Assembly: GCF_000702065.1 (NCBI RefSeq)
Contig: NZ_JNKN01000007.1
Span: forward strand, 1 to 64,000
From: Kandleria vitulina DSM 20405
Lineage (GTDB): Bacteria > Bacillota_I > Bacilli_A > Erysipelotrichales > Coprobacillaceae
DNA: 64,000 bases
Reading direction: 5' to 3'
The notes beneath the pieces were generated by a model that saw nothing but the letters and a program-made list of their open reading frames with translations, had not been told where the DNA came from and ran no database searches. Below, in pieces: positions 4,023-63,483 of this stretch (its first letter is position 1; each line of letters begins with the position of its first letter). The translations under genes and the position numbers were made by a program.

Positions 4023-6020
4023 TTAATCCACATATTCATTACCTGTTTTTATATTTTGTTTTATGACTGAAAGATATTCACTATATTCATTATACTTATA
4101 ATAGCTTTCAATCATCTCGATTGCATCGTTTCTTGCCATTCTCAATAGATCAAAGTCCTTGATTGCATCACCTAAAACAAACTGGTTAACCCCACTTTGT
4201 CTTTGACCCAATACTTCCCCTGGACCTCTGATTTCTAGATCATACTGTGAAATCTCATAGCCATCCGTATGATTTTCCATAAACTGAAGACGATCAATCG
4301 CTTCCTTATTTGTCGCATTTGACAACAGGTAACAATAAGACTGTTCGCCTCCCCTGCCAACACGACCTCTTAACTGATGAATTGATGACAAGCCAAAACG
4401 CTCAGCATCATAGATGATCATCATATTTGCATTCTTTACATCAATGCCTACCTCTACCACGGTAGTAGAAACAAGAATTTGGATCTTTCGATCATGAAAA
4501 TCATTCATGACCTGTCTTTTTTCTTCTTCTTTCATGTTTCCATGCAATAATCCTACCTGATAATGACCTTTAAAATAACGACTCATTGCGTCATAGACCT
4601 GAGTTGCACTTTTTAAAGGATAATCTTCATTATCTTCAATCATGGATGTAATGACGTAGACCTGTCCTCCTTCATTAAGATAAGAAATCAGATGAGAAAG
4701 AAAAGGCTTCATGCTGTTGCCTTTAAAATACTTCGTCTTCACCGGCAGTCTTCCTGCTGGCATAGAATGAATTTCTGATACATCCATATCTCCAAAGATA
4801 GCTAAAGCCAATGTACGCGGAATTGGTGTTGCTGACATTAACAGAAAATCCACATTCTTTCCTTTATTCTTTAAAGCCTGTCTTTGTCTTACACCAAAAC
4901 GATGCTGTTCATCAGTGATGACTAATCCTAAGTTCTTATAATTGACCTTTTCTTGAAAAAGCGCATGTGTCCCAACAATTATATCTATTTCCCCTTGTTC
5001 GAGCTTTTCATAAATATCTTCTTTTTCCTTTATAGAAAGTGATCCAACAAGAAGCGCCAATGAAAGATCTGTATTTTTAAAGAAAGACTTCAATGTCTCA
5101 TAATGCTGAGTGGCAAGCACTTCCGTTGGTGCCATCAATGCTCCCTGGTAATGTGACAAGTAGTTTGCATATAAAGCAAGTGAACTTACAACCGTCTTTC
5201 CACTTCCTACATCTCCCTGTAAAAAGCGATACATCATGGCTGGCTTTTCAATGTCCGCAAAGATTTCTAGACAAGCTTTCTGCTGGTCGATAGTGAGCTT
5301 AAATGGCAATGTCTTAATAAATGCATTCATCTCCTGATGTGAGAATATCTTGGCAATGCCTGCTTCTTGTTCTCTTTCTAATTTAATATACTGCATCGTC
5401 AATTGAAACTTGAGGAACTCTTCATATTTAAGATGCTTCATCCCCTCTATCATTTCTTCCTTGTTCTTAGGGAAATGGACTTTCATAAGAGATGCATATT
5501 TATCTTTAAAGCCATATTTTCTTTTATAGTCAAGTGGTACGAAGTCTTCTAGTTTATCACCGATAAGCGATAAAGCCTTCTTTACATATCCAGAAAACAT
5601 CTTATCCGTCATTCCTTCTTTTAAAGAATAGACAGAATGCATTCCTTTTTGTTCATCCAGCCCCTTTAATAAAAGCTGACTTGCGGTAATGCGATGACCT
5701 TCTTTTTTCCCAATGATAGTGACAATCTTTCCTAAAGAAAGATGCTGTCGTAAAAAGTGTCTATTGAAGATCGTCACAGTATATTCTTCATTCTTGATAA
5801 GAACCTTAACACTTAATCTAGATAGTCTTCCCTTGAAGAACACTTTCGCATTTTCTAGCACAGTTCCTTCTGCGATAACTTTATCATCCTCAAAGCATTC
5901 TTCTATTTCATCATATCTATAAGGAAGGTGCATCACGACATCCTGCAAGGTAGAAATGCCCATTTCTAAAAAAAGAGATTTTCTCTTTTCACTTGTTGTA
6001 AGTTTCTTCAATTCATCCAT
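4023..6020 (-). CDS. recG: ATP-dependent DNA helicase RecG
   Basis: Branch-migrating helicase that remodels stalled replication forks and Holliday junctions. The protein (665 aa) has an N-terminal wedge/OB region, Walker A GDVGSGKTV near residue 273, the DEQHRFG box near 370, the SATPIPRTLA motif and the C-terminal helicase motif QLRGRVGRG. The length fits the family. An in-frame GTG two codons earlier is rejected: AGGAGG is 7 bases before the ATG at 6020 but abuts the GTG. It is the first gene of a recG-plsX-rnc run. Confidence 0.97.
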   Translation of the reverse strand: MDELKKLTTSEKRKSLFLEMGISTLQDVVMHLPYRYDEIEECFEDDKVIAEGTVLENAKVFFKGRLSRLSVKVLIKNEEYTVTIFNRHFLRQHLSLGKIVTIIGKKEGHRITASQLLLKGLDEQKGMHSVYSLKEGMTDKMFSGYVKKALSLIGDKLEDFVPLDYKRKYGFKDKYASLMKVHFPKNKEEMIEGMKHLKYEEFLKFQLTMQYIKLEREQEAGIAKIFSHQEMNAFIKTLPFKLTIDQQKACLEIFADIEKPAMMYRFLQGDVGSGKTVVSSLALYANYLSHYQGALMAPTEVLATQHYETLKSFFKNTDLSLALLVGSLSIKEKEDIYEKLEQGEIDIIVGTHALFQEKVNYKNLGLVITDEQHRFGVRQRQALKNKGKNVDFLLMSATPIPRTLALAIFGDMDVSEIHSMPAGRLPVKTKYFKGNSMKPFLSHLISYLNEGGQVYVITSMIEDNEDYPLKSATQVYDAMSRYFKGHYQVGLLHGNMKEEEKRQVMNDFHDRKIQILVSTTVVEVGIDVKNANMMIIYDAERFGLSSIHQLRGRVGRGGEQSYCYLLSNATNKEAIDRLQFMENHTDGYEISQYDLEIRGPGEVLGQRQSGVNQFVLGDAIKDFDLLRMARNDAIEMIESYYKYNEYSEYLSVIKQNIKTGNEYVD

Positions 6021-10547: not shown

Positions 10548-12182
10548 TTATTCTACACCAATAATAAATGAATAAACTGGCTGAAGACCATCGATCATTT
10601 CTAATTCAGCATCTTCATATGTTTCTTCAATATATGCTTGTGCTTCTTCTTTTTCTTCGTCAGTGACATCTTCACCACAGATTAATGTGATGATTTCTGA
10701 ATCGTCATCGACTAATCCTTCTAATGATTTCTTTAAAGCATCCATCTTTTCTGGTACACAGGCAGTAATTGTCTTATTGCAAAGAGCCATATACTGGTTA
10801 GCTGTTACTTCTACACCATCAATGTTTGTATCTCTTACTGCGAATGTAACCTGTCCTGTTTTCACGTTTTCCATAGCATCTTTCATTTCTGAAACATTAT
10901 CTTCTAATGATGCTTCTGGGTTAAACATGATACAAGCTGACAATCCCTGAGGAATTGTCTTAGTAGGAATAACGATCACATCGATTTCGTCTTCTAAGAC
11001 AGTAGCAGCCTGCTGAGCTGTCATAACGATATTAGAGTTATTAGGCAATACGATAACATGTTTAGCATGTACACCTCTGATTGCTTTAACAAGATCTTCT
11101 GTAGCAGGGTTCATTGTCTGTCCACCTGATACGACATGATCACAGTGCAATTCTTCGAATGTTGCTTTAATACCGCTTCCTGCAGCTACTGAGATGACCG
11201 CAATGTCCTTTTCAGGAACTTCTTCGACAATCTCTTTCTTTTCTACATCTTTAGCATTAGGGTTTTCAATATCTACTGTTAAGAATTCACCAAAACGCTG
11301 AGCAATATTTAAGGCATTACCTGGCTTTTTAGTATAAAGCTTAGCTCTTACGATATTGCCATCCTGAACGATTGTAATACGTTCTCCTGGAATTCTTTCT
11401 AATTCATTCTGGAAGTTTTCTGCATTAAAGGCACTTTCTTTTCCTTCAGCGATATCAAGCATAAATTCTGTTCTATAGCCAAAGTTAGCCTTGATGCCAG
11501 CTTTTTCAGCTCTTTCAAGAGCCTGCTGATTTTTAACTTCTTCTTCATTAATATCAACACGTTCAATTTCTTCACCAGCTAATGCTGACATGAAACCAGT
11601 CAATACTAATAATAGCCCTGCTCCACCTGAATCGACTACGCCAACTTCTTTTAAAACTGGCAATAATTCTGGTGTACGATCCAATGATTCATTAGCTGCT
11701 TTAACGAAGTATGAGAAATAATCTTCGATTTCCATATCTTCTGTTACATAAGCCTTAGCCGCTTCTGCAGATTCTCTGATGACTGTAAGAATAGTTCCTT
11801 CAGTAGGTTTCATTACGGCCTTATAAGCCACTTTTGATCCTTGCATGAAAGCATCTGCTAAATCGTTGGCATTAGCAGTTTCTTTTCCTTTTAAGGATTT
11901 AGAAACACCTCTAAAGATCTGAGAAAGGATAACACCTGAGTTACCTCTTGCTCCCATTAATAATCCTTTAGATAATGTTTTTGCAATTTCATCAACTCTT
12001 TCACTCTGTAGACGTTCAACTTCAGTTGCTCCACTTGTAAAAGTTAATGACATATTAGTACCAGTATCGCCATCAGGTACTGGGAATACATTTAACGCGT
12101 CAATTTCAGGATGATTGTTATGGAGAACAGTTGCCCCAGTGACAATCATCTGTCTAAACATTTTTCCGTCAATGATTTTCAT
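10548..12182 (-). CDS. fakA: Fatty acid kinase catalytic subunit FakA (DAK2/YloV family)
   Basis: Phosphorylates fatty acids presented by a FakB (DegV-family) protein, feeding exogenous fatty acids into phospholipid synthesis. The N-terminal DhaL-like domain carries NVFPVPDGDTGTNM (metal- and ATP-binding Asp residues) and RGNSGVILSQ; the remainder matches the YloV central and C-terminal domains. The length (about 544 aa) is normal. The ATG at 12182 is preferred: GGAGG lies 5 bases upstream, inside the longer frame that begins at 12194. No fakB is in the window. It follows asp23 in the common yloU-yloV arrangement. Confidence 0.92.
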   Translation of the reverse strand: MKIIDGKMFRQMIVTGATVLHNNHPEIDALNVFPVPDGDTGTNMSLTFTSGATEVERLQSERVDEIAKTLSKGLLMGARGNSGVILSQIFRGVSKSLKGKETANANDLADAFMQGSKVAYKAVMKPTEGTILTVIRESAEAAKAYVTEDMEIEDYFSYFVKAANESLDRTPELLPVLKEVGVVDSGGAGLLLVLTGFMSALAGEEIERVDINEEEVKNQQALERAEKAGIKANFGYRTEFMLDIAEGKESAFNAENFQNELERIPGERITIVQDGNIVRAKLYTKKPGNALNIAQRFGEFLTVDIENPNAKDVEKKEIVEEVPEKDIAVISVAAGSGIKATFEELHCDHVVSGGQTMNPATEDLVKAIRGVHAKHVIVLPNNSNIVMTAQQAATVLEDEIDVIVIPTKTIPQGLSACIMFNPEASLEDNVSEMKDAMENVKTGQVTFAVRDTNIDGVEVTANQYMALCNKTITACVPEKMDALKKSLEGLVDDDSEIITLICGEDVTDEEKEEAQAYIEETYEDAELEMIDGLQPVYSFIIGVE

Positions 12183-12193
12183 AACTTCCTCCA

Positions 12194-12547
12194 TTAATCC
12201 ATGACTCTGATACTTTGTACATAAACATTAACTGCTTCAATATTAATGTCCAATGTTTTTTCAAGAACGTATTTTACTTTTTTCTGAACTTCATATACGA
12301 TTTCAGAAATCTTTACGCCGTATCCGACAATTACATATAGTGAAATAATGGCACCTGTTTCACCATTTTCAACTTTTATACCTTTTGAATAGTTTTCTTT
12401 CTTAAGAAGATCATAGATCCCATCGATCATCTTCTGGCTAGCCATTCCAACTACCCCGTAACATTCAGTGGCAGCTCCACCACAAATAGTTGCAATAACA
12501 TCATTAGATAATTCAATATGTCCAAGTTCTGTTGATTTTTGAATCAT
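12194..12547 (-). CDS. Asp23/Gls24 family protein (YloU-like)
   Basis: A 117-residue Asp23/Gls24 envelope-stress domain protein: ELSNDVIATICGGAATECYGV and the ending INIEAVNVYVQSIRVMD are typical. Family members bind membrane anchors or each other near the envelope; the exact role here is unknown. The pairing with fakA is conserved in Bacillota. GGAGGA lies 7 bases before the ATG, and a promoter can be read at 12613-12641. Confidence 0.9.
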   Translation of the reverse strand: MIQKSTELGHIELSNDVIATICGGAATECYGVVGMASQKMIDGIYDLLKKENYSKGIKVENGETGAIISLYVIVGYGVKISEIVYEVQKKVKYVLEKTLDINIEAVNVYVQSIRVMD

Positions 12548-12612
12548 AATTATCCTCCTCTACCATTATGTTTGATATTTAAAATATTTTTTCTAACATA
12601 ATATGCGTTTTT

Positions 12613-12641
12613 ATTATAAAGTATGGCTATTAAAAAGGCAA
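12613..12641 (-). promoter_or_regulatory. Putative promoter of asp23-fakA
   Basis: On the minus strand TTGCCT (12641-12636), a 17-base spacer and TATAAT (12618-12613). The leader would be about 60 bases. Confidence 0.5.
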
Positions 12642-12713
12642 CAAAGATAAGATTATTTTATAATTTGAATACTCTCATTTCTATTTAAATTATGATTTTT
12701 TTCGCAAAAGTAG

Positions 12714-12742
12714 TTGCAATTTCTAAATTGCAATGGTATTAT
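12714..12742 (+). promoter_or_regulatory. rpmB promoter with an overlapping palindrome
   Basis: TTGCAA (12714-12719), a 17-base spacer and TATTAT (12737-12742). The -35 box is part of an exact inverted repeat TTGCAATT-N4-AATTGCAA (12714-12733) that fills most of the spacer, the position expected of a repressor site. No T-run follows, so it is not a terminator. The binding protein, if any, is unknown. Confidence 0.55.
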
Positions 12743-12779
12743 GTCAAGGTATGTGAAAGCTTAAGAGGTGGTGAAGAAA

Positions 12780-12968
12780 ATGTCAAGAAAAAGTCAGTTA
12801 AGTGGTAAAGGACCTATGACAGGTAACAATCGTTCTCATGCATTAAACGCTACTAGAAGAAGATGGAACGTTAACTTACAGAAAGCAACTATCATTATTG
12901 ATGGTAAGCCAACTAAAGTAAAACTTACAGCTAGAGAATTAAGAACACTTAGAAAAAACGCTAGATAA
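12780..12968 (+). CDS. rpmB: 50S ribosomal protein L28
   Basis: Small basic large-subunit protein (62 aa), with the typical [20 protein letters not shown] and C-terminal [12 protein letters not shown]. The ATG at 12780 follows AGGTGG by 9 bases; the upstream in-frame GTG at 12768 is part of the ribosome site and is rejected. L28 paralogs with four zinc-binding cysteines exist; this copy has none, so it is the zinc-independent form. It stands alone on the plus strand, between its own promoter and terminator. Confidence 0.97.
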
Positions 12969-12977
12969 TAGAAGCAA

Positions 12978-13002
12978 GGATATGCAGTGCATATCCTTTT
13001 TT
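12978..13002 (+). terminator. rpmB terminator
   Basis: GGATATGCA (12978-12986) pairs with TGCATATCC (12988-12996), followed by six T. Confidence 0.9.
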
Positions 13003-13016
13003 CTATATATAAGCAC

Positions 13017-13041
13017 AAAAAAGAAGGCCTAAGCCTTCTTT
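13017..13041 (-). terminator. Terminator of the hrcA-grpE-dnaK-dnaJ operon
   Basis: AAGAAGGC/GCCTTCTT (13021-13028 with 13033-13040) lies just after the dnaJ stop; T6 follows on the minus strand. Confidence 0.85.
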
Positions 13042-14169
13042 TTATAATTTAAATGATTTTTTGAACTGATCAAAGATGCTAGATTTCTTAGAGGCATCCT
13101 GTAATTTCTTGTAAAGTTCCTTTTCTTGTTTAGTGAGCTTAGTTGGAACCTTAACTTTAACAGTGACATACTCATCACCGTAAGTATTTCCTCTTAATGA
13201 TTTAACACCTTTACCTTTTAATCTTAATGTAGCACCTGGCTGTGTTCCTTCTGGAATAGTCATGCTGACATCACCATAAACAGTTGGGACATCCACCTTG
13301 CATCCTAATGCGGCATCAGCAGGAGAAATCGGTACTTCAATTGCGATATTATCTCCCTGTCTTACAAAGTGTTTATGTGGTCTTACATAGATTTCTACAT
13401 ATAAGTCACCATTAGGTCCACCGTTGATTCCTCTTCCACCTTTTCCTGGTACTCTTAACTGCTGATGAGTATTGATACCTGCTGGAATTGTTAATTCTAC
13501 AGTGATGTTCTTATTGTTATATCCTTTTCCTTTACAATCAGGACAGATCTTCTTAATTTTCTTACCTGTACCATTACAATCTGGACAGGCAGCTTCTCTT
13601 ACGACTGTACCAAATGGTGAACGCTGCTGCATTCTGACTGTACCGCTACCACCACAGCGAGAACATGTTTCTACATCCTGTGGAGAAGCTGCACCTGAAC
13701 CATGACATGTTTTACATGGTTCATCGAAATTGATTCTGATTTCTGTCTTTTTACCTTTAATGGCATCCATGAAATCAATTTCAAGCTGCATAAAGCGATC
13801 TTCACCTTGACGAGGACCAGTTGGTCTTTGTCTTCTTTGACCTCCGCCAAAGAATGAACCGAAGATATCACCTAGATCGACATCATCGAAGCCACCGAAT
13901 CCGCCAAATCCACCACCGAATCCGCCAGCGCCTCCGCCATTTTGATCAAAGGCAGCATGTCCATAACGATCGTAGGCTGCTTTCTTATTTGCATCGGAAA
14001 GGACATCGTAAGCTTCCTGTACTTCTTTAAATTTTTCTTCAGCATCCGGTGCCTTATTGACATCTGGATGATATTTTTTGGCAAGTTTACGATATGCACG
14101 TTTGATGGTAGTTGCATCAGCACTCTTATCTATACCAAGCACTTCATAATAATCTCTTTTATCTGCCAT
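13042..14169 (-). CDS. dnaJ: Chaperone DnaJ (type I Hsp40)
   Basis: Co-chaperone that delivers clients to DnaK and stimulates its ATPase. Domains in order: J domain with KYHPD near residue 35, Gly/Phe-rich linker (about 75-105), four CxxCxGxG zinc repeats (about 145-215), and the C-terminal client-binding domains. Length 375 aa, normal. Of two adjacent ATG codons the second (14169) is 7 bases from AGGAGG and gives the usual [12 protein letters not shown] start. Last gene of the HrcA-controlled operon. Confidence 0.97.
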
Positions 14170-55841: not shown

Positions 55842-55862
55842 AAATGAAAAGGAGTCTTGGTT

Positions 55863-57320
55863 ATGAAAGAATGGACAAAAGAAGAACGTTATAGAGTACT
55901 TAAAAACAGAGAAGAAATTGTAGATTTACATGAACGCATTAAGCAGTCTCAATATCGACAATCTTATCATATTCAGCCTATAACCGGTTTGCTGAATGAT
56001 CCAAATGGATTTGTTTTTCATAAGGATAAATGGCATCTTTTTTATCAATGGTGTCCTTGGGGTGCAGTACATGGACTAAAGTACTGGTATCATACTGAAT
56101 CAAGTGATCTTGTTCATTGGGATAATAAAGGTATCTGTATTCATCCTGATCAGGATTTTGACAACAAGGGAGCCTACTCTGGTTCAGCGCTTGTGACTAA
56201 TCATTCTATTTATCTTTACTATACTGGTAATCATCGTGATGAAGACTGGAAGAGATCTTCCTATACCTGTCTTGTCAACATGAGAGATGATGGTACAAGT
56301 CATAAATATTCAAAACCACTTTTTGGTCCTCATCCTTCTTACACTGAACATCAGAGGGATCCTAAGATTATTTATCGTAAAAAAGAAAAGATGTATTATC
56401 TTCTCATCGGTGCACAGACAGCTGATAAGAAAGGCTGTATCATTGTCTATAAGTCACCTTATCACAATAAGGAATGGACTTTTGCTGGACAGCTCAATGT
56501 ACCCGGATTTGAAGATTTTGGAGATATGTGGGAATGTCCTTCTATCGAGCATATCGATGATTGTGATATTCTGATTTTCTGTCCTCAACATCTTTCTATT
56601 CCTTCAAGGGGAAACAATATACATCATAATGGCTATATCATTGGACATATGGACTATGATACACTTACTTTTACACCTGATGGTCAGTTCCATGTTCTAG
56701 ACTTTGGATTTGATTCTTATGCAGCTGAATGTGCCGCTAATATAAATGATCAAAAGAAAGCAATTCTCGTTGCTTGGATGGGACTTCCTGATGCTTCATA
56801 TCCTACTGATGATGAAGAATGGTCAGGATGCCTCACTTTACCTAGAGAATTGACTGTAAGAAAAAGAAGATTGATTCAAAGACCACTTAAACAGCTTGAA
56901 ACATTAAGAGATAAAAAGATTAATCCATTTAATCGTGAATTACCTAAATGTTGTGAGATTGATTTAAGACTACATGGAAATATTGATTTCAACTTGTTTA
57001 CAAAACAAGATGGCAGTGGTGGACTGATGATTCACTATGATGAATCACAAAAACACATCTACATTGATCGTTCAGGTATGACCAATAGATTCAATAAGGA
57101 ATTAGGTGAAAGTCAGACTCGTATTCTTGATCATCCATTAAATCATTTACAGATTTACATTGATGCAAGTTCTATTGAAATCTTTGTAAATGATGGTGAT
57201 GCAGTCTTTACATCTAGAGTATTCCCTACTAAAGAAGAACATTTCTTCTCTATTATTGGTGAAGGAACAATGCAGATTTATACATTAAAGTCTTCTAATG
57301 GTAATCAGTTTATTGTTTAA
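55863..57320 (+). CDS. Glycoside hydrolase family 32 enzyme (sucrose-6-phosphate hydrolase type)
   Basis: Splits beta-fructofuranosides; the cytoplasmic form without signal peptide suggests sucrose-6-phosphate or sucrose as substrate. All three catalytic motifs are present: LLNDPNGF (nucleophile Asp), QRDPKI and MWECPS (acid/base Glu), on a five-blade propeller, followed by the C-terminal beta-sandwich (about 345-485, ASSIEIFVNDGDAVFTSRVF). AAGGAG lies about 9 bases before the ATG at 55863. No PTS or regulator gene is adjacent, which is unusual for this family. Confidence 0.93.
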   Translation: MKEWTKEERYRVLKNREEIVDLHERIKQSQYRQSYHIQPITGLLNDPNGFVFHKDKWHLFYQWCPWGAVHGLKYWYHTESSDLVHWDNKGICIHPDQDFDNKGAYSGSALVTNHSIYLYYTGNHRDEDWKRSSYTCLVNMRDDGTSHKYSKPLFGPHPSYTEHQRDPKIIYRKKEKMYYLLIGAQTADKKGCIIVYKSPYHNKEWTFAGQLNVPGFEDFGDMWECPSIEHIDDCDILIFCPQHLSIPSRGNNIHHNGYIIGHMDYDTLTFTPDGQFHVLDFGFDSYAAECAANINDQKKAILVAWMGLPDASYPTDDEEWSGCLTLPRELTVRKRRLIQRPLKQLETLRDKKINPFNRELPKCCEIDLRLHGNIDFNLFTKQDGSGGLMIHYDESQKHIYIDRSGMTNRFNKELGESQTRILDHPLNHLQIYIDASSIEIFVNDGDAVFTSRVFPTKEEHFFSIIGEGTMQIYTLKSSNGNQFIV

Positions 57321-57346
57321 CAGGAACATTTGTTCCTGTTTTTTTA
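57321..57346 (+). terminator. Terminator of the GH32 gene
   Basis: CAGGAACA pairs with TGTTCCTG directly after the stop codon, followed by T7. Confidence 0.92.
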
Positions 57347-57387
57347 TTAACTTATGACTAACTCAAATAAACTTTTTGTACATTACC

Positions 57388-57948
57388 CTATCTTTGATAG
57401 TTGTGCCTGAGTCCCAGATACTGGTATCCCGAACCGGCTGCTTCGTTTGCCCTAGTCACGTCATTGGTTGGATCCATATCGACTATGATCCTTACCTTCT
57501 TGTCGGATTTGCTTACCTTGGCTGTGTACTTTCCGGTTCCGACTTCAGGGTCTTTCGCTCCATGCATTCTGCAGTATGCGATTGCGTTATCGATGCTTGA
57601 GAGCTTTCCTGAGGTAAAGTCTATATTGAAGGCCATTCCATTGTTGACTCTTTTCGGCCTTGCGCTCTTGAGCCTGTATTTTCCGCTGAATGTTTTGACA
57701 TTCCTGTTCTGATTCTGAAGCTTTTCGAGCTGCTTTGAAGTGACCTTATGTTTCGGATACTTCGAGACAAGCGCTGAGTCCGACACGTTTGTATTTGCGT
57801 ATACGGGAGTGACCAGTCCTGAACCGACCAGGCCTGCCAGCAGCATGGCCGCAGAAACCACAAAGGCAAAAGCTTTTCTTATCAGCGCAGATACACCGCC
57901 GTGACGAAGCCAGGAAAGCATGCCTATCCTATTCTTGTCTGCTTTCAT
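57388..57948 (-). CDS. Secreted protein of unknown function, paralog of 60074-60415
   Basis: About 186 aa. A basic N-terminus and a hydrophobic core (AFAFVVSAAMLLAGLVGSGL) end in an Ala-rich signal peptidase site near YANT. The mature part starts VSDSALVSKYPKHKVT and has a C-terminal domain with DNAIAYCRMHGAKDPE and a single Cys; I recognise no family. GGAGG precedes ATG 57948 by 9 bases (57954 also possible). The first 100 residues are nearly the same as in the 60074-60415 protein; the C-terminal halves differ. Visibly richer in G+C than the neighbouring chromosome. Confidence 0.65.
   Translation of the reverse strand: MKADKNRIGMLSWLRHGGVSALIRKAFAFVVSAAMLLAGLVGSGLVTPVYANTNVSDSALVSKYPKHKVTSKQLEKLQNQNRNVKTFSGKYRLKSARPKRVNNGMAFNIDFTSGKLSSIDNAIAYCRMHGAKDPEVGTGKYTAKVSKSDKKVRIIVDMDPTNDVTRANEAAGSGYQYLGLRHNYQR
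57633..57880. repeat. Direct repeat, copy 1 (second copy 60154-60401)
   Basis: The region coding the signal peptide and start of the mature protein recurs at 60154-60401 in the same orientation and with the same spacing (offset 2521, no net gap). In one 60-base block checked by eye (57641-57700) 56 positions agree. Confidence 0.85.
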
Positions 57949-57991
57949 TGACATAAACCTCCTTTACTTGCTTGCTCATTTCCATTTGTTA

Positions 57992-58291
57992 TCATTCTTG
58001 TATCAGTCCTTTCTTGTAAACGCATTTGCTGTGATGCATTTCTGGAACTGGCGGGCATGGCTGAAGTGTCAGGCGATGTTTTCTCATCGGAGGCTGATCA
58101 CGCTCTTCATGGACGTTTTCTGATGTCGCCAGAAACATGTTTCTTTCTTTGCTTTTCTCAGCCGGCTTTGGACTGGCTGTATTCAGAGCGGCTGCGAGAT
58201 TCTCGACGGCATCATTCTCCTCACAGGCTTCTACGATGCGTTTCGCAATCTCGATGCGTCCGCATTTTTCCGAGAATTCCCTGCAGAGGCT
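57992..58291 (-). pseudogene. Possible coding remnant
   Basis: A stop-free minus-strand frame of 99 codons follows a TGA at 58292-58294. Its translation looks protein-like in the first part (GRIEIAKRIVEACEENDAV and ENLAAALNTA) but has no start codon or ribosome site at its 5' end and matches no family I know. Open frames are common by chance in this G+C-rich stretch, so this may be a remnant of a longer gene or nothing. Confidence 0.25.
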
Positions 58292-58305
58292 TCAGGAAAC
58301 GGGCA

Positions 58306-58341
58306 GAAAAAGAACACCCATTCACTTCTGAATGGATGCTC
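58306..58341 (-). terminator. Terminator of the CAP-domain gene
   Basis: GAACACCCATTCA (58312-58324) pairs with TGAATGGATGCTC (58329-58341) around a CTTC loop, with some mismatches at the base; T5 follows on the minus strand. Confidence 0.75.
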
Positions 58342-58348
58342 TCTCTGT

Positions 58349-59959
58349 CTATTTTTCAAGCGTTTCGATTGACTCGCTGATGCGTCTGATGTCATTTTCG
58401 ATGCTGGCGATTTCACTGTCAGCCTTTTTCACTTTTTCATCTGCACTGTCCATTGCGGCTTTCTTTTCGTCCATTTCCTTTTTTGGAGCAGTGACGTATC
58501 TGTCGTAGTATGCCATGAATTTTTCTCTGTATTCAGAGAGGTTCATTGTGATGTCATTGTCTTCATATGTTGTCTGAGTGACTTTATATTTACAGTCTCC
58601 AATTCTAGTGACTTCAACATCATCTTCTTTGATGTATTCCTTGAAATGAGTTTTCAATACGCTTGGTTCAATATGGCGTGAATTAAGATCATCTTCAATG
58701 TCTTTTCGTTCAACAGTTGTTGAAACATAGCAAGGCTTGTTAGAATATCCCAATGCCGAATATCCGCCGCAATGTCCCATTCCCATGTAGCGGCCTTCAC
58801 GGCTAAAGCTTTTAACCGAAAAGTAATGACCGATTGGCCCGTATTTTTTTCTGGCTTCTGCAGGGCTGTTATTGAATTCTTCCTTGTGTTTTTCATAGAT
58901 TTCTTTTTCATCATCATACCATGCCTTGAATGGCAAGCCTGTTCCTGCTGCAAGGTTTTCACCGCCCAAGCCACAGTCATCGCCCCATGTCGTATGCGGT
59001 GAATCATGAGTATATTCATATTCATCATTGTTTCTGAAGAAGTTGCAGTTGAGCTGTTCAATGGCTGTCAGAATGGTACTGACTTTCGGAAGCACAAGAC
59101 CTTCTCGTTTGACGAGTGATTCATATTCCTTGAATGTATCCAATGTATCTTTCATTTCTTCAAGTGAAGTGGCATCTTTTTTGGCGCCCATATCTGTAAA
59201 GCTGTTGACATTCTCGTTAGAAGTTCTTTCAATGTTGTCTCTTGTAAGAAGCTGAACTGCTCCCTGCGCATTGATTGATCTGAAGAAACCCAGAGAGCCC
59301 TGCTTTACGATTTTCTGAGCTTCATCATATGCCTTCTTTGCCTGAACATATTGGGCTGTTGCATCTTCTAGTGCCTTTTTGCTGCTGGTCTGGCTGGATT
59401 TTGCATTTTCCAGCAATGCCTGTTTCTTTTCAAGTTCTGCCTTCAGTTCGGATAGACGATTCTGCTTTTCGGCCTCGCTCATTGTCTGAGGCTGATTGTT
59501 TGCGCTTTTATTTTCTGAAGACTTTGGCTTTTCTGCATTCTTTGTGGATGGTACCGATTTAGACTGCATCACTTTCTGTACAGGACGAGAAACCGGTCTA
59601 GCAGGCGCCTTTACAAGAATTGACCATACATATGTCTTCTTTCCCTTTTTGAGACTGATTCTTGCATTTCCAGGCATTTTTGCCTTTACTGTCCATCTGT
59701 ATCTGATTTTTCTTCTTTTCTTCCCCTTTCTGATGTATTTTGGAGCGATTGTCGCAACTCTTCTATTTGAAGTCTTGGCACTCTTTCCTTTCTTTAGGAA
59801 TATATCAAAGCTGCCTCCTGCTGTCATGCCTCTGCTGACAAGAACTATGGACGGCTTTTTCTTTTTCGCCTTTTTTGCTTCAGCTGGCGTTACTGCTGAA
59901 ACGGTGAGCGCTGAAGCCATGACGGCTGACGCTACCGCACTGATGATTGCTTTTTTCAT
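58349..59959 (-). CDS. Secreted CAP (SCP/PR1) domain protein with basic Ig-like module and coiled coils
   Basis: 536 aa. Signal peptide about 1-28 (cut near PAEA). About 33-120: a very basic Ig-like (BIg-type) module with NRRVATIAPKYIRKGK. About 155-215: coiled coil (QNRLSELKAELEKKQALLE). About 285-440: CAP domain with THDSPHTTW, GGENLAAG, FKAWYDDE and IGHYFSVKS, which hold the expected His/Glu residues. About 490-536: a second coiled coil. CAP proteins act in diverse secreted roles; the enzyme activity is usually unknown. GGAAGGG lies 7 bases before the ATG. Island composition is unlike the flanks. Confidence 0.72.
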   Translation of the reverse strand: MKKAIISAVASAVMASALTVSAVTPAEAKKAKKKKPSIVLVSRGMTAGGSFDIFLKKGKSAKTSNRRVATIAPKYIRKGKKRRKIRYRWTVKAKMPGNARISLKKGKKTYVWSILVKAPARPVSRPVQKVMQSKSVPSTKNAEKPKSSENKSANNQPQTMSEAEKQNRLSELKAELEKKQALLENAKSSQTSSKKALEDATAQYVQAKKAYDEAQKIVKQGSLGFFRSINAQGAVQLLTRDNIERTSNENVNSFTDMGAKKDATSLEEMKDTLDTFKEYESLVKREGLVLPKVSTILTAIEQLNCNFFRNNDEYEYTHDSPHTTWGDDCGLGGENLAAGTGLPFKAWYDDEKEIYEKHKEEFNNSPAEARKKYGPIGHYFSVKSFSREGRYMGMGHCGGYSALGYSNKPCYVSTTVERKDIEDDLNSRHIEPSVLKTHFKEYIKEDDVEVTRIGDCKYKVTQTTYEDNDITMNLSEYREKFMAYYDRYVTAPKKEMDEKKAAMDSADEKVKKADSEIASIENDIRRISESIETLEK

Positions 59960-60044
59960 TCGGGTTCCCTTCCTTTCATTCTCATAATATCATGATACAT
60001 CCATTGAACATTTTCGCAAGACAGAAGGTGATATTTGAGTCAAA

Positions 60045-60064
60045 AACCACTGCTCGCTGCAGTG
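60045..60064 (-). terminator. Terminator of the 60074-60415 gene
   Basis: CACTGC (60048-60053) pairs with GCAGTG (60059-60064); on the minus strand GG and then T5 follow. Confidence 0.75.
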
Positions 60065-60073
60065 CCTTTTCTT

Positions 60074-60415
60074 TCATTGTTTTCTGAATTTGTTTACCTT
60101 CAGGTCATTGTGCGATACCTTGTCGTATCTTGTGCATGCATTCTGGAAAACGACCATTCCATCGTTGACTCTTTTCGACCTTACGCTCTTGAGCCTGTAT
60201 TTTCCGCTGAATGTCTTGACATTCCAGTTCTGATCCTGAAGCTTCTTGAGCTCAGCTTTAGTGACATTGTGTTTCGGATACTTCGAGACAAGTGCTGAGT
60301 CCGACACGTCTGTATTTGCGTATACGGGAGTGACCAGTCCAGAACCGATAGACCCCGCAACGAGCATGGCTGCGGAGGCCAGAAATGCAAAAGACTTTTT
60401 TATTCTGTTGTTCAT
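60074..60415 (-). CDS. Short secreted paralog of the 57388-57948 protein
   Basis: 113 aa. Signal peptide MNNRIKKSFAFLASAAMLVA, then VTPVYANTDVSDSALVSKYP. It matches its paralog up to about residue 88 (RVNDGM), after which the two differ: this one ends in a short KVNKFRKQ tail and lacks the Cys-containing C-terminal domain. It may be a true short form or a copy truncated by recombination. AAAGGA precedes the ATG by about 10 bases. It has its own terminator. Confidence 0.62.
   Translation of the reverse strand: MNNRIKKSFAFLASAAMLVAGSIGSGLVTPVYANTDVSDSALVSKYPKHNVTKAELKKLQDQNWNVKTFSGKYRLKSVRSKRVNDGMVVFQNACTRYDKVSHNDLKVNKFRKQ
60154..60401. repeat. Direct repeat, copy 2
   Basis: Second copy of 57633-57880 (see that entry). 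The two copies bracket the CAP-domain gene, so unequal recombination between them would delete it. Confidence 0.85.
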
Positions 60416-60550
60416 TTCTTTCTTTTCCTTTCATTGTCGGCATGAATGGTGGAATCTCTGCAGCCTTCCGCAATGACTGGAGAGACTTCACGCCTTCGTG
60501 TCGCAATACCAATATGCAAGAAAGTATAGGTCATGGAACATGGAATGAAC

Positions 60551-60578
60551 AAAAAAAGAGAACGCAATGTTCTCTTTT
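60551..60578 (-). terminator. Terminator of the 60593 gene
   Basis: AAAAGAGAAC (60554-60563) pairs with GTTCTCTTTT (60569-60578) around five bases; further T follow on the minus strand. Confidence 0.88.
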
Positions 60579-60592
60579 GGCTGTGTATTTTT

Positions 60593-61909
60593 CTATACCA
60601 CCACATGCTCGTTAGGGCATCCTTCAATGACGAATGTTTCTCCGTTGTATGTGATCAAGTTATTGACATGTGCAGGATTTCTCCTGTCCGGATGATTGTA
60701 TCTGAGTCCGGAAGCCGGCACACCAAGCTTCATTGCGCATTTTTCGATGATGTCAGTCGCATCAACGCAGCTGATGACACGTCCCTGGAACCATACTCCG
60801 CCGTCTCCATACTTGTCGGCGTACATTCCCTTGTAGTACTTGTCCGGATGGGCGAATCCTCCGTCTTTCCATCCTGTCGTTCTCATGTATGTGCCGAGTC
60901 TCTCAAGCTTTTCCTTTACAGTAGCTCTCGAACTGGCACCTGAACGTTCCATAAGGTCATCAAGAGCTCTGCCTTCTGCGATTCTGTAGTCATCAAAGGT
61001 GACTGTGATGCTGCGTCCTGTCTTGTAAACCGGATTGTATGGCTGAACGACTGCCACATCCATCTTGTAGGTTCCTGCCTTTCTGGCTTGTACTGCAAAG
61101 ACATATCCATCACTGACTTTAGTGGCTGCACCATTTCCATCAGTGCTGTGATAACGCTTATCCGCAATATCTTCACAAGAAGGCATGTCCATACCGGTTC
61201 TGTCGTCAATAAGGGCAAAATCATCTGACTTGAGATTTGTCTTCCACTTGATCAGAACTGTCGAACCTGCTACGACATCTCCATTGACATTGTTGACGGT
61301 GTTGTAGAATTTGTCCTGATTGTGCATTCTGTCAATGACGAGAGGCTCATCAATGACAGGCTCGTTCTTTGGCACGGTCATGCCTTCAGGTCTTGGATCA
61401 TAGATGACCTTTGGTGCGTCTCCGCTCTGCGATGCTGATGCGTTTCCTGATGAATGGCTCTTGCCTGCACCTGAACGCTTGGCAGTACCGTTTCTGCCTG
61501 CTGCTGCATTTCCCTTTACGGTTACATCATAGCGGTATACTGTCTTTCCTGATCTGATCGTGATGACTGCCTTTCCGGCACGGATTCCTCTGATTGAAAA
61601 GTATCCCTTGAATACCTTCACCTTTTTCCACTTTCTGATTTTCTTTTTCTTCTTGCCTACTTTCTTGTAGACTGTCACACGCTTTCTCTTCTTCGAGTAT
61701 TTTTTTGAAACAGTGGCAATGCTTCTGTCTGAAGACTTCTGCTTCTTTCCTTTCCTTACTCTGACTGTGATTGTCTGTCCGACCAAGACACTCTTACGTG
61801 AAGAAATAGTTTTAGCATGTGTTAAATTAATGGATGAAGTCATTACGCTTGCTGCTACTATCATTGCAACAAGAAAAGAGAATGTCTTCTTTAAAATATT
61901 CTTTTTCAT
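60593..61909 (-). CDS. Secreted protein with basic Ig-like module and transglutaminase-like C-terminus
   Basis: About 438 aa from ATG 61909 (AAGGGAAAGAGG just upstream; 27 upstream codons to 61990 rejected). Signal peptide about 1-32 (cut near THA). Next a very basic Ig-like module with SDRSIATVSKKYSKKRK and VITIRSGKTVYRYDV, a Ser/Gly/Ala linker, a possible second beta domain, and a C-terminal region with SCVDATDIIEKCAMKLGV, then PAHVNNLITYNGETFVI. This Cys...His order and the following acidic residue fit a transglutaminase/cysteine-protease fold. No LPxTG or membrane anchor is visible, so retention may rest on charge. Function is unknown. Confidence 0.65.
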   Translation of the reverse strand: MKKNILKKTFSFLVAMIVAASVMTSSINLTHAKTISSRKSVLVGQTITVRVRKGKKQKSSDRSIATVSKKYSKKRKRVTVYKKVGKKKKKIRKWKKVKVFKGYFSIRGIRAGKAVITIRSGKTVYRYDVTVKGNAAAGRNGTAKRSGAGKSHSSGNASASQSGDAPKVIYDPRPEGMTVPKNEPVIDEPLVIDRMHNQDKFYNTVNNVNGDVVAGSTVLIKWKTNLKSDDFALIDDRTGMDMPSCEDIADKRYHSTDGNGAATKVSDGYVFAVQARKAGTYKMDVAVVQPYNPVYKTGRSITVTFDDYRIAEGRALDDLMERSGASSRATVKEKLERLGTYMRTTGWKDGGFAHPDKYYKGMYADKYGDGGVWFQGRVISCVDATDIIEKCAMKLGVPASGLRYNHPDRRNPAHVNNLITYNGETFVIEGCPNEHVVV

Positions 61910-62030
61910 TTTCCTCTTTCCCTTCTTGTATATAGTCAATATATACATTTTTTTCACCAATATTTTACTCCTTGATGCTTTATTTTTCAATTCAATGAAT
62001 ATTTAAAATATATATAAGATTGATTAAATA

Positions 62031-62057
62031 AAAAAAGCATTCCCTATGAGGAATGCT
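62031..62057 (-). terminator. Terminator of the MATE exporter gene
   Basis: AGCATTCC (62036-62043) pairs with GGAATGCT (62050-62057) over the stop codon; T6 follows on the minus strand. Confidence 0.88.
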
Positions 62058-63432
62058 TATAATCATCATCCATTTTTACATGCATGTTTTTCTTTGGAAG
62101 TTCTCTAAAGAATTTCACTAGGAATGGTATACATGTTAATGTTGTTAAGATATCTGCTACCATCTGTGCTGATTGAATTCCTAAGATTCCCAACAAACGA
62201 GAAAGAATAAACAGAATAGGAATATAATAAATACCTGATCTTAATGCTGCGAGGAATGAAGCGATGGCACTTTCACCAATACTTTGGAACATCATATTAG
62301 AAACAACAGATAGTGGTGATGCAATCAAAGCGATACAGTGAAAACGTAAAGCGTTTTTACCAATTGCAAGTACACGTGGGTCATTTCTAAATAATAAAAT
62401 AAGTGGTTCTGGATTAATAAATGCGATAATCGCAAAAATACCAAGCACAGTTTCACCTAGTACCCATGTCACTAAGAAACCTTCTCTAATACGCTTATAT
62501 TTTTTAGCACCATAATTGAATGCTGCTACTGGCTGATAGGCCTGCCCGATACCAACCATCGTTGATGCAAAGAACATTACAATTCTTCCAACAATGGTCA
62601 TCCCCGCAATAGCTGCATCACCATAAGGTTTAGCGATAATATTAAGTGACATTGTAGATAGAGAATTCAACATCTGACGAATAAGACTTGGTGTTCCATT
62701 TTGCATGATACGTGTTAATTCTTCACCAAATCCTTTGGCTTTCTTTAATGAAATGCTTGTCATTGTCTTTTTTGAAATAAACATGTAAAGCAGAATGCCA
62801 AAGCTAATATATTGTGATAACGCAGTTGAAAGCCCTGCTCCATGAATGCCCATCTTAAGTCCAAACATGAAAATAGGATCTCCAATCATGTTTAATACGC
62901 CACCTGAGACAAGACCAACCATCGCTAGTGATGCTTTTCCTTCATAACGCATAATATTATTAAGCACACAGCTTGCAGAAAGTGCTGGTCCACTTAAAAG
63001 AATGTAGAATCCATAGATTCTTGCATAAGGAAGAATTGTTTTTGTACTTCCTAGAAATACCATCAATGGTGAAATCATCATCATTGCCAATATCGTAATG
63101 ATACTGCTAGCCACAATAGATGCAAGAAAGCCTGTCGATGCATAGACATCCGCAAGCTCTTTTTTTCCCTTTCCCAAAAGAACGCTGATTCGTGATCCAC
63201 TTCCATGACCACACATAAATCCAACAGCCTGAAACACAGCCTGAATACTCATAAGAATACCGATAGCTGCTGCCGCACTTGTTCCAAGCATTCCAACAAA
63301 GTATGCATCTACTAGATTGTAGATCATTCCTATCATCATACTAATAACAGTAGGAATAGCTAATACTGGAATAATTTTAGTAATAGGTGTTCTAATCAGC
63401 TGATCATATTGTTTACGTTCTTTCGCATCCAT
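62044..63432 (-). CDS. MATE family efflux transporter
   Basis: Twelve-helix cation-coupled exporter of about 462 aa. Recognisable stretches are PITKIIPVLAIPTVISMMIG and IYNLVDAYFVGMLGTSAAAA near the start, RYEGKASLAMVGLVSGGVLN and QPVAAFNYGAKKYKRIREGF. GAGGTG lies 5 bases before the ATG at 63432. Substrate unknown. Composition returns to the chromosome norm here. Confidence 0.92.
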   Translation of the reverse strand: MDAKERKQYDQLIRTPITKIIPVLAIPTVISMMIGMIYNLVDAYFVGMLGTSAAAAIGILMSIQAVFQAVGFMCGHGSGSRISVLLGKGKKELADVYASTGFLASIVASSIITILAMMMISPLMVFLGSTKTILPYARIYGFYILLSGPALSASCVLNNIMRYEGKASLAMVGLVSGGVLNMIGDPIFMFGLKMGIHGAGLSTALSQYISFGILLYMFISKKTMTSISLKKAKGFGEELTRIMQNGTPSLIRQMLNSLSTMSLNIIAKPYGDAAIAGMTIVGRIVMFFASTMVGIGQAYQPVAAFNYGAKKYKRIREGFLVTWVLGETVLGIFAIIAFINPEPLILLFRNDPRVLAIGKNALRFHCIALIASPLSVVSNMMFQSIGESAIASFLAALRSGIYYIPILFILSRLLGILGIQSAQMVADILTTLTCIPFLVKFFRELPKKNMHVKMDDDYKHSS

Positions 63433-63483
63433 ATAATCACCTCTTTTTTGCACACCTATTATAAGACCAAAAAAAAAGAAAAA

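Follow-up and report, generated by a model that had tools for sequence, protein, structure and literature searches.

A probable horizontally acquired cassette of secreted surface proteins between MATE transporter and GH32 genes in Kandleria vitulina

Is the G+C-rich block of secreted genes that separates a GH32 gene from a MATE-type transporter gene in Kandleria vitulina DSM 20405 foreign to its genome, and what might its products do at the cell surface? We analyzed this block within a window of 64,000 nucleotides, the whole stretch of contig NZ_JNKN01000007.1 under study. Between the stop codons of the GH32 gene (55857-57320, plus strand) and the MATE-type transporter gene (62044-63453, minus strand) lies an insert of 4.7 kb (57321-62043), which carries a run of four consecutive genes on the minus strand: gene 1 (57388-57954, 188 aa), gene 2 (58349-59959, 536 aa), gene 3 (60074-60415, 113 aa) and gene 4 (60593-61909, 438 aa). 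On balance, we favor reading the block as a horizontally acquired cassette of secreted, wall-retained surface proteins whose parts are mostly familiar.

A first-pass annotation had described all four genes as encoding exported proteins, and the N-termini agree with this: in each, a basic n-region precedes a hydrophobic core and a cleavage site of the A-X-A type (VYA/N, AEA/K, VYA/N and THA/K in genes 1 to 4, respectively), with a long n-region in gene 1. None of the four proteins has a lipobox or, as had also been stated, an LPXTG-type sorting signal; a relaxed sorting pattern matched only once in the four, at an internal VPASG of gene 4. The annotation's description of a block made up purely of secreted genes did not hold, as a start-less open frame of 99 codons sits between genes 2 and 1 (57992-58291, minus strand). 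Its GC content by codon position (0.58/0.41/0.49) is coding-like, it had no match in any search made for relatives, and it is probably a gene remnant, the tail of a lost fifth island gene. Each gene had likewise been credited with its own terminator. We found terminator-like hairpins followed by a U-run, all on the minus strand, downstream of gene 2 (58308-58345; -22.8 kcal/mol, z -6.2), gene 3 (60048-60064) and gene 4 (60554-60578), but not of gene 1, which faces the GH32 terminator (57319-57340) and could use only the other face of that structure. This terminator forms the left edge of the insert, and a terminator-like hairpin at the MATE end (62035-62058, minus strand) forms the right edge.

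To describe the genome background, we used 439 open reading frames (ORFs) from the window and from 20 stretches of 20 kb of the same genome, which had a GC content of 0.352 +/- 0.041 and a GC3 of 0.279 +/- 0.065. The island genes ranged from 0.42 to 0.48 in GC and from 0.41 to 0.56 in GC3, with GC/GC3 values of 0.48/0.55 for gene 1, 0.42/0.41 for gene 2, 0.45/0.55 for gene 3 and 0.44/0.47 for gene 4. Measured in 200-bp steps, G+C was 0.29-0.34 up to about 57.4 kb, where it climbed to 0.38-0.51, and it dropped to 0.27 at about 61.8 kb, so the block is indeed richer in G+C than its flanks. The left compositional edge lies near the GH32 terminator, as the annotation had placed it, but the right edge falls within gene 4 rather than at a gene end, and the first ~40 codons of gene 4 have a genome-like GC3 of 0.25. 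Because this edge is inside the gene, gene 4 may be a local start fused to a foreign body, which we treat as a lead only. Ranked from the lowest codon log-likelihood among 402 background genes, genes 1, 3 and 4 were atypical (ranks 2, 3 and 7, respectively) and the CAP gene, gene 2, mildly so (rank 37). By contrast, six native secreted genes with a similar N-terminal module (two for GH25 muramidases, four for Ltp proteins) had a GC3 of 0.20-0.27 and ordinary codon usage; secretion therefore fails to account for the codon bias, and the island genes differ in both codon usage and G+C from secreted genes of the same genome. Elsewhere in the sample, an ORF pair at L030:4620-6805, with a GC3 of 0.54-0.59, comprised the sole other real-looking genes as G+C-rich as the island.

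The corresponding site is empty in G015, a genome of the same family and another genus than the source. There, the orthologous MATE gene (ending at L076:5911) and GH32 gene (with its stop codon at 5933) are adjacent and convergent, with 21 bases between them and a single hairpin common to both genes. The surrounding order is kept as well: nadC accompanies MATE on one flank, and on the opposite flank GH32 is joined by genes for an AEC transporter and a phage-lysozyme-SH3 protein. In G024, which represents another species of the same genus as G015, the gap is filled by a different two-gene insert with frames of 83 and 263 aa (L077:4958-5997); the shorter frame is of membrane type and the longer one is DUF218/YdcF-like by eye. 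With the gap empty in one genome and occupied by other genes in the second, the block appears as an insertion at a point that was filled otherwise in another lineage, and the MATE/GH32 gap suggests a reused insertion point. In a third genome, G050, the MATE and GH32 genes are closer in sequence, but they lie on separate contigs, which makes this genome uninformative about the site. Composition, codon usage and, most decisively, the empty site with conserved flanks all support the proposal that the locus was acquired, with some room for loss in G015 rather than gain here. The ORFs and repeats of the region included no integrase, no transposase and no terminal repeat. We noted neither a tRNA nor a duplicated target site at the island edges, and the searches made returned no donor for the island.

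Genes 2 and 4 carry the shared, extremely basic Ig-like N-terminal module that the annotation had pointed out, and profile comparison identified this module as a diverged member of Big_2, the bacterial Ig-like domain group 2. It directly follows the signal peptide and spans about 95-100 residues (29-121 in gene 2 and 33-132 in gene 4), with a net charge of +31 in gene 2 and +35 in gene 4, against -9 and -4, respectively, for the remainder of each protein. Neither protein reached the Pfam Big_2 cut-off (PF02368). Using hhalign, however, we aligned both modules with bona fide Big_2 domains of the same family with a probability of 95.5, compared with 2.2 or less for column shuffles, and an E-value of 1.4e-8; the score was 47.1, and the best of 100 query-column shuffles reached 16.3. 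Because column shuffling lowers the score in this way, Lys-richness alone is insufficient to explain the match. The modules resemble Big_2 in sequence profile, in their position after the signal peptide and in a core of G-x-A-x-I and GK-x-x-Y; they differ in having diverged beyond the reach of the Pfam model and in carrying a Lys/Arg-rich insert, which is larger in gene 4.

The same genome has 12 Big_2 places above the Pfam cut-off, and the basic module extends beyond the island: it is a diverged Big_2 domain used genome-wide. Two tandem GH25 muramidases (L015:10621-11967 and 12141-13562) have a similar basic Ig-like N-terminal module, probably a wall-retention domain. As in the island proteins, a signal peptide and a basic module (net charge +32 and +33) precede the functional domain in these muramidases, and a Lys/Arg-rich segment interrupts the module as it does in gene 4 (L015:10621-13562); unlike the island genes, they have a wall hydrolase as catalytic domain and native codon usage. 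Attachment of genes 2 and 4 to the wall by charge, which the annotation had put forward, is plausible and gains in plausibility because the muramidases bear the same kind of module; its presence on wall hydrolases is the strongest argument we have for a role in wall retention.

In gene 2, the module is followed by a coiled coil, the CAP domain proposed in the annotation and a second coiled coil. The CAP domain extends over about 223-400 and contains the His-Glu-His cavity residues (His318 or His322, Glu334 and His378), the first His being uncertain owing to an insertion. Gene 2 did not match the Pfam CAP model (PF00188) at its cut-off, but it aligned with relatives that do: a tblastn search with the CAP region retrieved L053 and L054, both of which pass PF00188, and gene 2 matched annotated CAP proteins on plasmids of Bifidobacterium longum and Collinsella (E-values of 4e-11 and 3e-7, respectively). 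We found relatives in 25 other Erysipelotrichales genomes, some of which match mainly the coiled coil or the module, and a profile built from the relatives of gene 2 spans the CAP region. Within the island, only this CAP part of gene 2 has such scattered relatives.

The architecture of gene 2 is already known from surface proteins of the coiled coil-CAP-coiled coil kind, encoded on Bifidobacterium and Collinsella plasmids and by Erysipelotrichales, with which it shares the domain order, about 30% identity in the CAP region and both the GENL and GHY motifs. It departs from them in having the Big_2-like module in front in place of long coiled coils and LPXTG-like tails, in being about half as long, and in staying under the cut-offs of the CAP and SEC10/PgrA models. 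SEC10/PgrA proteins carry a C-terminal sortase anchor, whereas gene 2 ends in a coiled coil with no LPXTG-type motif. On the SEC10/PgrA model TIGR04320, which has a cut-off of 70 bits, it scored 16.9 bits, and over the coiled coil only. Since this cut-off was missed, we classed gene 2 with the CAP surface proteins and left it out of SEC10/PgrA. Two further matches of gene 2 were rejected: one to JUQZ_fam_ocin (E 0.061), which is an effect of the signal peptide and module, and one to LmuB (E 1.4e-5), which falls on coiled-coil sequence.

In gene 4, the module leads into a Ser/Gly linker, a predicted beta-rich region (about 190-310), a helical region and then CVDATDIIEKCAMKLGVPA ... HVNNLITYNGETFVIE, an order that includes low-confidence secondary structure. 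The annotation had proposed a transglutaminase-like domain, and a Cys-x(32)-His-x(14)-Glu motif (Cys381/His414/Glu429), with flanking residues of the transglutaminase core, speaks for one; Pfam, NCBIfam and structure prediction gave no confirmation. The pattern had no other match in the 439 sampled ORFs and none in 21,950 shuffles, counts that apply to a pattern written after the sequence had been seen. As in TGc-type and papain-like cysteine domains (PF01841), the Cys stands at the start of a helix and is followed by L-G-V-P-A, and gene 4 has H-x-x-N with an acidic residue 15 positions past the His. The third catalytic residue of the TGc motif is usually Asp; in gene 4, Glu replaces it, there is no TGc profile match in Pfam or NCBIfam, and the fold prediction is of low confidence. 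The AlphaFold2 model of the C-terminal part from a single sequence had a pLDDT of 39 and was unusable, and a Foldseek search with the low-confidence model matched only the beta-rich part, with no hit at E <= 0.001. Judged from these residues, the C-terminus of gene 4 probably forms a core of the transglutaminase-like kind in which Glu replaces Asp. In the searches made for relatives of gene 4, the basic module alone was matched.

Genes 1 and 3 had been described as two short paralogs, which is accurate for their front part: they are alike over 83 codons, and the corresponding 250-bp direct repeats on the minus strand (57633-57882 in gene 1 and 60154-60403 in gene 3) are 85% identical in DNA sequence. 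The common stretch runs from the signal peptide through ...KRVN(N/D)GM, after which the two proteins diverge and are wholly different, gene 1 continuing with ~80 C-terminal residues of its own and gene 3, after signal peptide and a common segment of ~50 residues, with a distinct tail of 26 residues. The mature proteins, of 135 and 80 aa respectively, are basic, with a pI of about 10. For the mature common part we obtained a dN of 0.11 and a dS of 0.15, and for the signal-peptide part a dS of 0.66, all rough values from short stretches. Because dS is low in the mature part and high in the signal peptide, this pattern points more to sequence exchange between the two copies than to a steady drift apart.

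Gene 1 had no significant relative in 43 genomes of the same family or in 295 genomes of the phylum, where an E-value of 0.002 or more is expected by chance at such numbers, and none in phages, plasmids, viral contigs or 85,000 species genomes, for which the contig scans used exact patterns of 7-8 residues and detect close relatives only. Gene 3 likewise had no relative outside the source genome where searched. That the locus evolves rapidly, as the annotation had suggested as an alternative to acquisition, is hinted at only by this orphan status and by the way the tails of the two short paralogs have diverged. We rejected PDB matches between gene 1 and antibody light chains (best E 0.005), as the target set is very redundant and the score borderline; the single cysteine of gene 1 also speaks against them. 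The AlphaFold model of mature gene 1 from a single sequence had a pLDDT of 41 and was unusable.

Read as an acquired cassette, the block would have entered the space where two convergent housekeeping genes, those for the MATE transporter and the GH32 enzyme, meet, and its four proteins would leave the cell via ordinary signal peptides. Genes 2 and 4 would stay on the wall independently of sortase, through binding of the basic Big_2-like module to anionic wall polymers. Gene 2 would then display outward a CAP domain mounted on coiled coils, and gene 4 a beta-rich part together with a cysteine domain of transglutaminase-like type that is probably a peptidase or a cross-linking enzyme. The two short basic proteins are probably secreted companions with a common export and front segment and differing tails. 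We infer that the four genes may function jointly.

The same genes could instead be native, lineage-specific secreted genes that owe their high GC3 to selection or gene conversion. A similar module on native secreted genes, the native GC3 of the signal-peptide part of gene 4, the lack of a donor and the only mildly atypical gene 2 would fit such an origin, but we consider it improbable, given that native genes with similar modules have a GC3 of 0.20-0.27 against 0.41-0.56 in the island and that the gap holds no gene in G015 and other genes in G024. At the opposite end, we entertain only tentatively a broader reading that joins sortase-independent wall display by an interchangeable Lys-rich Big_2 charge tag, common to native muramidases and incoming foreign surface proteins, with a reused MATE/GH32 landing place and a new family of short paralogs whose front is constant and whose tails can be exchanged.

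Two other readings assign the cassette a specific role. SEC10/PgrA proteins have a proposed surface-exclusion function, and a wall-held CAP-coiled-coil protein and its neighbors might block the entry of plasmids or phages. The nearest architecture is indeed coiled coil-CAP-coiled coil, the Bifidobacterium and Collinsella plasmid relatives of gene 2 score on the SEC10/PgrA model, and four Big_2-Ltp proteins adjoin cas9 elsewhere in the genome. Set against this are the coiled-coil-only TIGR04320 score of gene 2, far under the cut-off (16.9 against 70 bits), its untrusted LmuB match, the absence of defense families from genes 1, 3 and 4 and the absence of mobile-element genes beside the island, and we regard an exclusion function as unlikely. 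Less likely still is secreted antagonism, with genes 1 and 3 as bacteriocin-like killers with a common leader and exchangeable tails, helped by genes 2 and 4. Small basic secreted paralogs with an identical front and different C-termini, encoded by foreign and orphan genes, would suit such a role, but an immunity gene, a dedicated exporter and a processing site are all absent, the signal peptides are ordinary, and no bacteriocin or toxin family was matched.

If the reading as an acquired cassette of wall-retained proteins is right, the locus would illustrate, cleanly and on a small scale, how gut-type Gram-positives acquire surface proteins, with an empty site and a foreign cassette, and the anchoring domain would be of the basic kind already present on the host cell's own wall enzymes. 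The question of whether the basic module alone suffices for wall retention thereby becomes testable. Strain- or lineage-specific surface-protein islands are already familiar; as far as we have searched, the new elements here are the orphan short secreted pair, the combination of the basic module with a probable transglutaminase-like domain, and a demonstrable insertion site.

The survey of the same genome yielded two further observations. At L016:8471-11316 (contig C2), four tandem secreted proteins of Big_2 + Lipoprotein_Ltp type, of which one was checked with Pfam and three were judged similar by eye, lie immediately upstream of a CRISPR locus that contains cas9. Because Ltp is known from phage superinfection exclusion, this stretch may be a defense neighborhood. 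At L016:4120-6393, a glycogen-synthase-like protein has an N-terminal extension of ~270 residues consisting of a Lys/Ala/Glu repeat (KKAAAKKTVKETKAEEKPA).
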